NCBI GenBank assembly: GCA_009787695.1
Contig: WQSW01000005.1
Span: 1 to 40,489, forward strand
From: Treponema sp.
GTDB lineage: Bacteria > Spirochaetota > Spirochaetia > Treponematales > Breznakiellaceae
Direction of reading: 5' to 3'
DNA length: 40,489 bases
The notes under the pieces were generated by a model that did not search any database, was not told the origin of the DNA, and saw only the letters and a program-made list of their open reading frames with translations. The position numbers and the translations under genes were made by a program. Below are positions 2,410-5,196 of the stretch, piece by piece. How positions within the stretch are numbered: the stretch's first letter is position 1; every line of letters begins with the position of its first letter.

Positions 2410-2525
2410 TGATCGAGGAGAGAATCGAACTCCCGACCAGTTGCTTCTTCAACAGACTATTATCTGTTTTAATATTTATAATCTGTTGGAGAAGGCAACT
2501 GCTCTATCCACTGAGCTACTCGACC
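2410..2525 (-). tRNA. tRNA-Arg(UCU)-like gene with a 43-nt insert in the anticodon loop
   Basis: On the minus strand the 7-bp acceptor stem (GGTCGAG with CTCGATC), D arm (GCTC/GAGC), 5-bp anticodon stem (GTTGC/GCAAC), 5-nt variable loop and T arm (GGGAG-TTCGATT-CTCTC) are all intact. CCA is not encoded and the discriminator is A. Removing 2447-2489 leaves exactly 73 nt and the loop CT-TCT-AA, a textbook tRNA-Arg(UCU). A one-base shift of the junction would give anticodon TCG, also Arg. As encoded, the anticodon stem runs into a longer imperfect hairpin and cannot present a normal anticodon. The insert is far too short for a group I intron. It may be an unusual intron, an RNA processed in another way, or a broken gene. 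A good promoter lies upstream (2572-2600). Confidence 0.75.
2447..2489 (-). other. 43-nt insert in tRNA anticodon loop (putative intron)
   Basis: The insert sits between anticodon position 36 and position 37 of the reconstructed tRNA. Its ends pair with each other (CAACAGA with TCTGTTG), continuing the anticodon stem through TTCT/AGAA, with one bulged C and one C-A mismatch, to an AT-rich 25-nt apical loop at 2457-2481. The boundaries can slide by a base or two. No archaeal bulge-helix-bulge motif is apparent. Confidence 0.6.
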
Positions 2526-2571: not shown

Positions 2572-2600
2572 ACAATATCATTTTTGTAACTTAAAGTCAA
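2572..2600 (-). promoter_or_regulatory. Sigma70-type promoter of the tRNA gene
   Basis: On the minus strand TTGACT (2595-2600) and TATTGT (2572-2577) are separated by 17 nt, about 45 nt before the tRNA 5' end. It lies downstream of the V-ATPase operon terminator, so the tRNA appears to be transcribed independently. Confidence 0.6.
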
Positions 2601-2736: not shown

Positions 2737-3171
2737 TTACAAGCTTATCATTGTAAAAACCATCGTGAAAAGCGCGACTGGTTCTGATATACTGATAACG
2801 CTGATGTATTGGGCAAAGCCTTTACCGGTTTCACATAATGCATCGCAAGCTGCAGCTCCTGCTTTTCCCTGTACTATAGCGGTTGCGCCGATTGCAAGAC
2901 CTGCAGCAATTGCAAACCCGAAATACAGTATTCCGTTTTCAGGTGTTGTTTCCGCCGCATTCTTGAGTGTCCCCAATAATATAAATGCGTAGAAAATCTG
3001 TGTTAAAGGGAATCCTGCAAATACTAACAAGGTCATGGGAGCCGGTTTATTTGTTGTAAAACACTTCTTCCATGCGCCGATTGCCGCTTGCGCGCAGCTG
3101 CCGATACCAATGGCTGAACCGATGGCTGTTATACCAAGCACTAAACCGGCTCCTAATAATCCTAAATCCAT
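2737..3171 (-). CDS. ntpK: V-type ATPase subunit K (membrane rotor ring proteolipid)
   Basis: The 144-residue protein has four membrane helices, two fused c-like hairpins, with glycine-rich helices (GLVLGITAIGSAIGIG). It forms the membrane ring that carries ions through the Vo part. The single carboxylate in the last helix is Glu130 (ISEPVALF). Aligned by eye to Enterococcus hirae NtpK, Thr57-Gln58 (FPLTQ), Gln101 (IVQGK) and Glu130 match the Na+ ligands Thr64, Gln65, Gln110 and Glu139. This points to Na+ rather than H+ coupling, by inference only. It is the last gene of the operon, 18 bases after ntpI, and is followed by the operon terminator. Confidence 0.95.
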   Translation of the reverse strand: MDLGLLGAGLVLGITAIGSAIGIGSCAQAAIGAWKKCFTTNKPAPMTLLVFAGFPLTQIFYAFILLGTLKNAAETTPENGILYFGFAIAAGLAIGATAIVQGKAGAAACDALCETGKGFAQYISVISISEPVALFTMVFTMISL

Positions 3172-3189
3172 ACTTTACTCCTTCCAATT

Positions 3190-5196
3190 TTATTTTGCTT
3201 CTTTTTTTGCAAAGGGTTTGTAAGCTTTGCCTGACCAGCTAAGCCCTACATGCCCTGAAAATTCCAATGTATTCAAACGCACGCCGTGAACAAGGACAGC
3301 CAATACGTTAAGCACCATGTTCAAACCATGACCGAAAATAAATAATAAAATCCCTAAGAAAATCAAGAAATTGCCAAATAAGGGACCAGCCAGTAAATTA
3401 ACCGTTCCTGCAATAGCAGCTCCTGCTAACCCTACCGCCCAAAGCCTTATATAAGACATTATATCAGAAAATACACTTACTATCCCTAAAATAACGGTAA
3501 TTATACTCTGTAAACTGGATATTACAGATTGTTTGAAACTTGTCTGATAATACCCAAACAAGAAGTTTAGAAGAAAACCGCCTGCAATAAGATAAAGCGA
3601 TACAGGATGCAAATCGATTTTACGGGTTTCATTACTTACAATGAGCATTAAAACCACATTATATACACCTGTAAGCATGGCAATTTGACCTATGTCTGCA
3701 AGGAACCTAGGTGTTTTTAACTTTATAAACTTTACTATATTATTAAGATGCGCTATTGACAGATGTATTAAACCGAGCGTAAAACAGAATATTTGTAAGT
3801 TCTGTGTTACTAAGACAGGGTCTGTTTTTGCAGTTGAAAAATATGAAAGAGAAATGTCCTGTAAAAATTGCGGAACTTTTTCAACTTCAAAACCGAACCA
3901 AGAGCAGGTCAGTACACCCCATATTGTATTTGATACACCAAGTAATAGAAGTAATAAAAATCCTTTTGGGATCGGTTTTTTCGGTATATTATTCCTATTA
4001 TCGATTGCAAATTTTATAAGGCAGAATATCGCGATTAATGCAAGCATTGAACCGTAGGCGGCATCGCTGAAAATCATGCCGAAGAAAATGCTGAAGAAAA
4101 CAAGAAACCATATTGAAATATCAATCTCACGATAACCCGGCAGTAACCCAAGAAAACCTGTAACAGGGTTAAGTATATCTACAAATTTATTATTTTTAAG
4201 TTTAGTCGGGACTTTTTCATCTTCAGGATCAGGATCGTATGCTGACAGTGCCCAGCAATTTTCTCTGGCGACAGCTTTTACATGCTTAAGATCTTCTGCC
4301 GGGACATAACCTGTTAACCATGAAAGTTTACTGAACGGATTTTCCGTTTTTTGTTCTTCCATAATTTCCATATTAGCCATTGCATCTTCAAACTCAATAT
4401 CCTGCTGAACTTTTACCATTTCCGTATTTAGAGCAGAACGGCGGTTGGCGAAATTTTTTAATTTTTCGTCATATTCACTTATTTCTTTTTTTACTACTTC
4501 AGCTTCCTGTAATAATTCATTCAAACTTTTTTCAGGTATTTTTACAGGAGAAACACCTTTTATTTCTTTTTCAAATACTATAAGATGAATAACTGTTTTA
4601 TTTGTTTTAACTTTGATAAAAACAATATCTTCTTCCAAATTTTTAAAATCATCCTGAAATATTTCATAAAGATAAACAGGCATTCCGCTGTCAAACATAG
4701 CCTTAATAATACCGGGATCAAAATTACCCCAATTTTGTATACGTTTTATTTCATGGCTAAGAAATATATCTCTGTCTTTTAATGTTCTGCGGCTTTTATC
4801 TATGTTCAGCATAAACTCAGATAAATCCGGTCTTGAAGGAGCTCTTACCGCGCTTAATGAATACGGCTCTTCTTCTTCTGTTCCAAAAATATCGGTTGCT
4901 CTTCTGCCTCTATGAAGCCCTATCGGTTTTTGCCTTCTTTCAAAAGGAGGGCGGTTATCTTCAGGCTCCCCTTTCTTTTTCTTTTTAGGTTTCTTTTCCT
5001 TCGGTAATTTAAAATCTCTAATAAGTCCGATTGCATCTTCAACTTTTACTCTATGTTTTTGTGCATTGGAATTGATGTCTACAGGTATATCTCTTGATTC
5101 CAGATGAATCACTCCAATGTCACGTAACTTTTGAAGAGCTATATCACGGAATGCTTCCTGAACTACAAGACAGATTTTTTTCATTGGTACAATCAT
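3190..5196 (-). CDS. ntpI: V-type ATPase subunit I (stator and ion channel)
   Basis: The cytosolic N-terminal half (about 1-355) forms the peripheral-stalk connection and ends in PTKLKNNKF, common in this family. From about residue 359 there are seven or so membrane helices. The motif SYIRLWAVGLAGAAIA carries the arginine that meets the rotor carboxylate. The start MIVPMKK has AAGGGA upstream; the second Met (residue 5) is an alternative. An unusual charged, lysine- and proline-rich segment occupies about residues 64-125 (KKPKKKKKGEPED, then an acidic TEEEE), interrupting the first alpha/beta unit. It lies between subunits D and K in the operon, the order seen in Treponema and Chlamydia. The family call is firm; the role of the insert is unknown. 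Confidence 0.93.
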   Translation of the reverse strand: MIVPMKKICLVVQEAFRDIALQKLRDIGVIHLESRDIPVDINSNAQKHRVKVEDAIGLIRDFKLPKEKKPKKKKKGEPEDNRPPFERRQKPIGLHRGRRATDIFGTEEEEPYSLSAVRAPSRPDLSEFMLNIDKSRRTLKDRDIFLSHEIKRIQNWGNFDPGIIKAMFDSGMPVYLYEIFQDDFKNLEEDIVFIKVKTNKTVIHLIVFEKEIKGVSPVKIPEKSLNELLQEAEVVKKEISEYDEKLKNFANRRSALNTEMVKVQQDIEFEDAMANMEIMEEQKTENPFSKLSWLTGYVPAEDLKHVKAVARENCWALSAYDPDPEDEKVPTKLKNNKFVDILNPVTGFLGLLPGYREIDISIWFLVFFSIFFGMIFSDAAYGSMLALIAIFCLIKFAIDNRNNIPKKPIPKGFLLLLLLGVSNTIWGVLTCSWFGFEVEKVPQFLQDISLSYFSTAKTDPVLVTQNLQIFCFTLGLIHLSIAHLNNIVKFIKLKTPRFLADIGQIAMLTGVYNVVLMLIVSNETRKIDLHPVSLYLIAGGFLLNFLFGYYQTSFKQSVISSLQSIITVILGIVSVFSDIMSYIRLWAVGLAGAAIAGTVNLLAGPLFGNFLIFLGILLFIFGHGLNMVLNVLAVLVHGVRLNTLEFSGHVGLSWSGKAYKPFAKKEAK

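Follow-up and report, generated by a model that had tools for sequence, protein, structure and literature searches.

The window, by which we mean the whole 40,489-nucleotide stretch of Treponema DNA analysed here, contains a tRNA-Arg(UCU) gene whose anticodon loop is interrupted by a 43-nt hairpin insert, and the same architecture occurs in relatives and in phages. An earlier note, made from the letters alone, had described an unusual short hairpin insert in a functional tRNA-Arg(UCU), distinct from a group I intron, and what we found in relatives and phages supports that description. We regard it as quite probable that the insert is removed from the RNA, by whatever enzyme. Our preferred reading is that it is a genuine short intron of a working tRNA-Arg(UCU), cut out by RNase III and sealed by an ATP-dependent ligase; our confidence in this reading as a whole is evenly balanced, and the naming of RNase III and an ATP-dependent RNA ligase as the particular pair may equally well prove right or wrong.

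The interrupted gene and its genome

The sole Rfam family match found by cmscan in the window was to the tRNA family RF00005 (gathering score 29), at 2410-2525 on the minus strand, with 54.5 bits and an E-value of 3.7e-9. ARAGORN missed the gene without its intron mode and recovered it with that mode, giving a 43-nt insert and a misnamed anticodon (called Leu). Together, the RF00005 match and the intron-mode call bear out the anticodon-loop insert that had been proposed at 2447-2489. The earlier note also held that removal of the insert leaves an intact 73-nt tRNA with the loop CTTCTAA; uninterrupted orthologues indeed match 2490-2525 and 2410-2446 directly joined. The features are collected in Table 1.

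Table 1. Features of the interrupted tRNA-Arg(UCU) gene, in window coordinates (I1 is the first insert base and I-1 the last)
Feature	Coordinates	Strand	Evidence
5' exon, tRNA positions 1-36 (ends U36)	2490..2525	-	RF00005 match; identical uninterrupted orthologues
43-nt hairpin insert, intron candidate, begins C, ends AG	2447..2489	-	absent in 28 genus relatives; 28-/43-nt versions in two relatives
3' exon, tRNA positions 37-73, A37 onward, discriminator A, CCA not encoded	2410..2446	-	RF00005 match; orthologue comparison
Conserved helix, 5' strand: U33 U34 C35 U36 and insert I1-I8	2482..2493	-	pair counts, shuffles, fold
Conserved helix, 3' strand: I-10 to I-1 and A37 A38	2445..2456	-	pair counts, shuffles, fold
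Sigma-70-like promoter match proposed in the earlier note; weak, chance level	2572..2600	-	consensus scan

The insert lies between tRNA positions 36 and 37, and its boundaries are unique. Because its first base (C) differs from A37, which opens the next exon, and its last base (G) differs from U36, which ends the preceding one, the insert cannot be slid along the sequence. All cloverleaf arms, the UCU anticodon and the orthologous locus are present in the interrupted gene. The fold of the precursor has a z-score of -5.74 against 200 shuffles, none of which was as good (0/200); the D stem is absent from the minimum-energy fold of the whole precursor. The case for the dedicated promoter proposed at 2572-2600 is weak: the site matches the consensus at 9/12 positions, and a scan gave 2 sites against 1.2 expected by chance, so the match says little on expression.

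The genome that the window belongs to (G000) is a 2.82 Mb draft, 95.6% complete. An intact UCU gene elsewhere, which the earlier note had named as evidence against its claim, was not found when all 45 tRNA matches in the draft were read, nor was any other second tRNA-Arg(UCU) gene. One should keep in mind that several expected tRNAs (e.g., Glu UUC and Thr UGU) are missing from this draft, so a second UCU copy could have been missed. Arginine is otherwise served by the anticodons GCG, TCG, CCG and CCT, and among the Arg codons of the 27 window ORFs of at least 150 aa, AGA is used most (172/485). On the simplest reading, the cell relies on the interrupted gene.

Distribution in Treponema and in phages

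Relatives were searched for the same insert, as the earlier note had suggested, using a covariance model and follow-up searches on 39 genomes of the genus. An uninterrupted UCU gene was found in 28 of them and an insert exactly at 36/37 in three: G000 (43 nt), G026 (28 nt) and G060 (43 nt, on a long contig). The 3' half alone is present in G032, and the gene was not found in the remaining seven (G006, G007, G018, G019, G028, G029, and G033), four of which (G007, G019, G028, and G029) are at least 90% complete; a longer insert would escape the searches used, which bears on these seven genomes. In relatives, the UCU gene stands at the same locus, beside a RelA/TPR gene. The half gene of G032 (C41:321-364), which runs from the anticodon arm on, is also beside the usual RelA/TPR gene and resembles what an integrated element would leave at its far attachment site, or else a break in the assembly.

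The exons of G000 and G026 are identical (73/73), while their inserts are 43 and 28 nt long. Those of G060 differ at positions 3 and 70 only, which are paired acceptor positions in which T-A has become C-G, a compensated change. G060 is a mixed bin, with a second interrupted gene on a contig identical to that of G026 over 2916 bases; being the result of cross-binning, this gene was left out as a further genome.

A tree of five flanking proteins rejected the monophyly of the three insert carriers (AU p 1.6e-6), and a single clade of carriers is ruled out by this test; a single-gene tree was largely unresolved. Since the carriers are not monophyletic, the insert has a history of repeated gain or loss, or of movement through recombination. 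The five-protein tree excludes V-ATPase subunits I and K, along with one divergent subunit A, because they come in two types. Within the genus, subunits I and K (window 2737-5196, orthologous regions L274-L292) fall at about 55-83% or at 40-49% identity to those of the window, which suggests replacement, and subunits B and D agree throughout.

Across the order, a looser pattern scan of 390 genomes gave matches only in G000 and G026 (G060 was outside that draw). The records of two insert-bearing genomes describe Treponema sp. MAGs, whose sample names we take to mean termite gut. Two candidate origins were rejected: a mobile repeat, since BLAST with the interrupted gene finds no second insert copy in G000 or 58 relatives, and a plasmid, the plasmid collection being without a match to the gene.

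For the wider collections, we used a pattern made of tRNA landmarks plus a non-A base after CTTCT, with pairing not required. Three stretches of the genome collection matched, all from Treponema, and the viral collection gave four matches, or five with a looser form. The viral carriers are Aeromonas phage PX29 and four uncultured phages. PX29 is a T4 relative in whose record (GU396103.1, 101162-101261) the gene is annotated as a two-piece tRNA-Lys, but it is actually an interrupted tRNA-Arg(UCU); the sections available to us of the paper on T4 relatives that includes PX29 are silent on it (PMC2993671). The interrupted gene is unannotated in the records of the related phages Ah1, avDM12-TAAL and AsFcp_2. 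In Ah1 and avDM12-TAAL the insert has diverged and is 28 nt long; phiAS5 shares the locus but lacks any insert. The other tRNAs of PX29 serve 18 amino acids, none of them Arg, so that the interrupted gene is its only Arg tRNA; this leaves out three ARAGORN calls with odd inserts (Cys, Ala, and Val) as probably spurious.

Between PX29 and Ah1, the exons show compensated changes in the D and anticodon stems. Compensated exon changes in both Treponema and phages indicate that interruption has not freed the genes from constraint as tRNAs in either of these two unrelated lineages. Standard annotation misses such genes or misnames them, as with the tRNA-Lys of PX29 and the Leu call in the window, so the sets of tRNAs listed for phages and uncultured bacteria may contain errors.

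A wider viral scan and a further set of phage loci with tRNA inserts together gave 50 distinct phage tRNA-insert candidates. The hairpin geometry described below is present in 10 of them (five UCU, four Thr, and one Ile), and many of the remainder are chance matches or other classes. Three other kinds of insert were seen among the phage tRNAs. Inserts of about 40 nt occur in the 5' strand of the anticodon stem at L145, L168 and L203, with a motif, recognized by eye, of GTAAAA, a hairpin and ACAGCAA; they are perhaps also present at L151, L171, L185, L194, L204 and L213, and this is a class different from the 36/37 hairpin inserts. At L213, an Rnl5-like ligase is encoded no more than about 1 kb away from the tRNA. 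Two tRNA-Lys(CUU) genes (L157 and L187) have 35-36 nt anticodon-loop inserts that end in AAAAT and whose internal hairpin is not extended into the exon. Finally, seven loci (L199, L219, L302, L309, L316, L320, and L325) carry anticodon-loop inserts of 43-49 nt with a T-arm-like hairpin, some ending in CCA, which gives the appearance of one tRNA holding part of another.

A conserved hairpin and the enzymes that may remove it

Pairing was counted in nine distinct UCU inserts, none chosen for pairing: eight came from the unselected scans and the window, and that of Ah1 was found by BLAST from PX29. The eight tested pairs, 35:I-1 to I6:I-8, are formed in 64/72 cases. Shuffled inserts gave 28.8 +/- 4.0 pairs and never more than 44 (20,000 shuffles); in other pairing registers the count was 24-44. 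In all nine inserts (9/9), a single continuous hairpin encloses the anticodon, which pairs with the last two bases of the insert. The earlier note had the insert ends pairing with each other; they do pair, but with an offset, I1 lying opposite I-3 and the last two insert bases pairing with anticodon positions 36 and 35.

Selection for the same geometry added five further inserts, four from Thr(UGU) genes and one from an Ile(UAU) gene. In the resulting set of 14, five of them thus chosen for pairing, 35:I-1 covaries with the anticodon (C-G in nine, G-C in four, and A-U in one) and 36:I-2 is U-A throughout (14/14). I1:I-3 is formed in 11/14, all exceptions being C.A, and I2:I-4 in 9/14, with G.G in all four Thr members; several members thus have a C.A or G.G mismatch adjoining the 5' cut. 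When the arms were folded alone, 12/14 took up the stated register, including all nine UCU members. In the window, a partial bulge-helix-bulge can be drawn by eye in an alternative register, but the I1:I-3 count and the register control both speak for the stated one. The arms in phages comprise about 16-22 base pairs, with the predicted cut near the middle; PX29 has only four uninterrupted pairs on the insert side, followed by an internal loop. Insert lengths range from 26 to 43 nt across members, and no shared loop sequence was seen among them.

The predicted helix runs through both splice sites, and two cuts that release the insert from a continuous helix at 36/37 would be offset by 2 nt with 3' overhangs. 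A 2-nt stagger with 3' overhangs is the shape of RNase III products. The predicted cut geometry (duplex, 2-nt stagger) fits an RNase III substrate in 9/9 UCU inserts; because this stagger arises wherever a helix with a single bulged base continues through 36/37, the fit is no proof.

Under the preferred reading, the anticodon stem of the precursor would continue as one helix, with position 32 bulged and U33:A38 and U34:A37 paired; C35 and U36 would then pair with the last two insert bases, after which the insert would pair with itself. RNase III is the most likely candidate for a double-strand-specific nuclease that would cut after U36 and before A37, with a 2-nt stagger leaving a 3' overhang on each product, and would so release the hairpin. 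RNase III leaves 5'-phosphate and 3'-OH ends, and the exon ends would presumably be of this 5'-P/3'-OH kind. Sealing of 36 to 37 would then fall to an ATP-dependent RNA ligase, either of the Rnl5 type (DRB0094/NgrRnl) or of the T4 Rnl1 type. More tentatively, bacteria and phages may have their own class of protein-spliced tRNA introns, defined by a 26-43 nt anticodon-pairing hairpin at 36/37, removal by RNase III and sealing by Rnl5 or Rnl1.

Candidate ligases are present. All three insert-bearing Treponema have an Rnl5-type ligase. Among six genus genomes searched, PF09414 matched at about 100 bits in G000, G026, G060, G012 and G013, and had no match over the cut-off in G023. The protein matches the Naegleria RNA ligase (NgrRnl) over its full length (E 7.2e-62), joins a PF21189 OB-fold domain to the PF09414 ligase domain with a KMDG motif (KxDG), and scores 140 bits against TIGR02306, below the 151-bit equivalog cut-off. 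It is 80-86% identical among the five genomes; its gene adjoins that of RNase III in three of the five (G026, G012, and G013) and that of the CCA-adding enzyme in G000 and G060. The T4 Rnl1 type (PF09511) is found in 4/39 genus genomes, namely G000 and G060, which carry the insert, and G012 and G013, which do not; it was not found in the insert carrier G026 or in any of 14 control genomes. Rnl1 is present in 4/4 Aeromonas phage records searched, including that of insert-free phiAS5. One uncultured insert-bearing phage has both Rnl1 and an Rnl5-like ligase, and neither PF09511 nor PF09414 was found in the records of the other three of the four, none of which is known to be complete. Since genomes that lack the insert (G012, G013, and phiAS5) have such ligases as well, their link with the insert is permissive only. 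A jumbo-phage paper treats such ligases as tRNA repair enzymes (PMC7824862).

Several other explanations should be weighed. The insert could be a real protein-removed intron that is cut by another endonuclease, leaving 2',3'-cyclic phosphate and 5'-OH ends, and finished by RtcB or end-healing enzymes. Archaea and animals use RtcB as their tRNA splicing ligase, and the earlier note had proposed looking for it and for a splicing endonuclease. It is indeed present in G000, but it occurs in 13/39 genus genomes and in only one of the three insert carriers, being not found in G026 and G060 (94 and 96% complete), so that RtcB is not supported as the general ligase. The archaeal-type endonuclease (EndA, PF01974) had no match in G000, with control matches in 4/14 genomes, all archaea; moreover, the predicted fold is without a bulge-helix-bulge, and both cut sites lie in or beside paired sequence. 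We consider this route unlikely. That the gene is a relic killed by its insert, with another tRNA reading AGA, would suit the patchy presence of the insert and a draft in which a second copy could be missing. It is quite improbable in view of exons that have stayed constrained while interrupted in Treponema and phages, a hairpin pairing kept through compensatory changes, and an AGA codon that is the most used for Arg where a sole UCU gene was found.

The site itself hints at a group I intron, either a collapsed self-splicing one or one that a ribozyme splices in trans: in UCU members, the position at 36/37 of tRNA-Arg, after U and with an insert ending in G, resembles group I boundaries. Against this, U36 pairs with A and not G in 14/14, the Thr and Ile members end in C or U, the loops share no sequence, and the window has no Rfam intron match. 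Self-splicing is unlikely at such a size without the U.G splice-site pair, 26-43 nt being set against a catalytic core of roughly 100 nt (PMC4033280), and we give this explanation very little weight. The hairpin might instead be excised and the exons left unjoined, the nicked tRNA being held by its stems, much as RNase III excises stems of 100-200 nt from 23S rRNA and leaves it fragmented (PMC8708148). A break at 36/37 would sever the anticodon loop used in decoding, and candidate ligases are at hand, which makes this outcome highly improbable too. Lastly, the insert might be a safety device or switch that masks the anticodon from anticodon nucleases, the tRNA being released only with ligase and ATP. 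The anticodon is fully paired in the predicted precursor and some carrier phages encode RNA ligases, but the idea is purely inferential, requires splicing anyway and leaves the absence from most relatives unexplained; we think it distinctly improbable.

Comparison with known systems

If the RNase III and ligase route is true, it would be a new protein tRNA splicing pathway, independent of EndA and RtcB, and would supply a natural substrate for Rnl5 ligases; the function of ATP-dependent RNA ligases in bacteria and large phages becomes directly testable in common laboratory strains. The insert would be a short intron, probably dependent on proteins for its removal, in a tRNA that the bacterium cannot do without, and phages would have a corresponding class. 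Searches of an open-access library turned up no description of such a hairpin tRNA intron class, though subscription papers or preprints may contain one.

Group I introns in bacterial tRNA genes, such as cyanobacterial tRNA-Leu and Azoarcus tRNA-Ile, likewise interrupt the anticodon loop and have a patchy distribution, and a tRNA-Arg of Agrobacterium also holds one. They are self-splicing ribozymes of hundreds of nucleotides, whereas the hairpin insert of the window is 43 nt long and has neither the core nor the U.G splice-site pair. The EndA/TSEN introns of archaea and eukaryotes are also short, part of them may pair with the anticodon, and protein-dependent removal is likely for the hairpin insert as well. 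The hairpin insert differs from them in lying at 36/37 and not 37/38, in occurring in bacteria and phages, and in having no bulge-helix-bulge, PF01974 being not found in G000.

The intervening sequences of 23S rRNA that RNase III excises have in common with this insert a hairpin and a probable double cut by a double-strand-specific enzyme. They are 100-200 nt long, however, and the rRNA stays fragmented, whereas the tRNA needs rejoining inside its anticodon loop. Such rejoining has a parallel in the tRNA repair of T4, in which Pnkp and Rnl1 act after PrrC cleavage: there, a ligase seals a break in a tRNA anticodon loop, and homologues of Rnl1 are present in G000 and the Aeromonas phages, but the break is damage done by a host nuclease, with no insert to remove. 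The insert is therefore neither a group I intron, nor an EndA-type intron, nor an intervening sequence of the 23S type, but it is still a tRNA intron.
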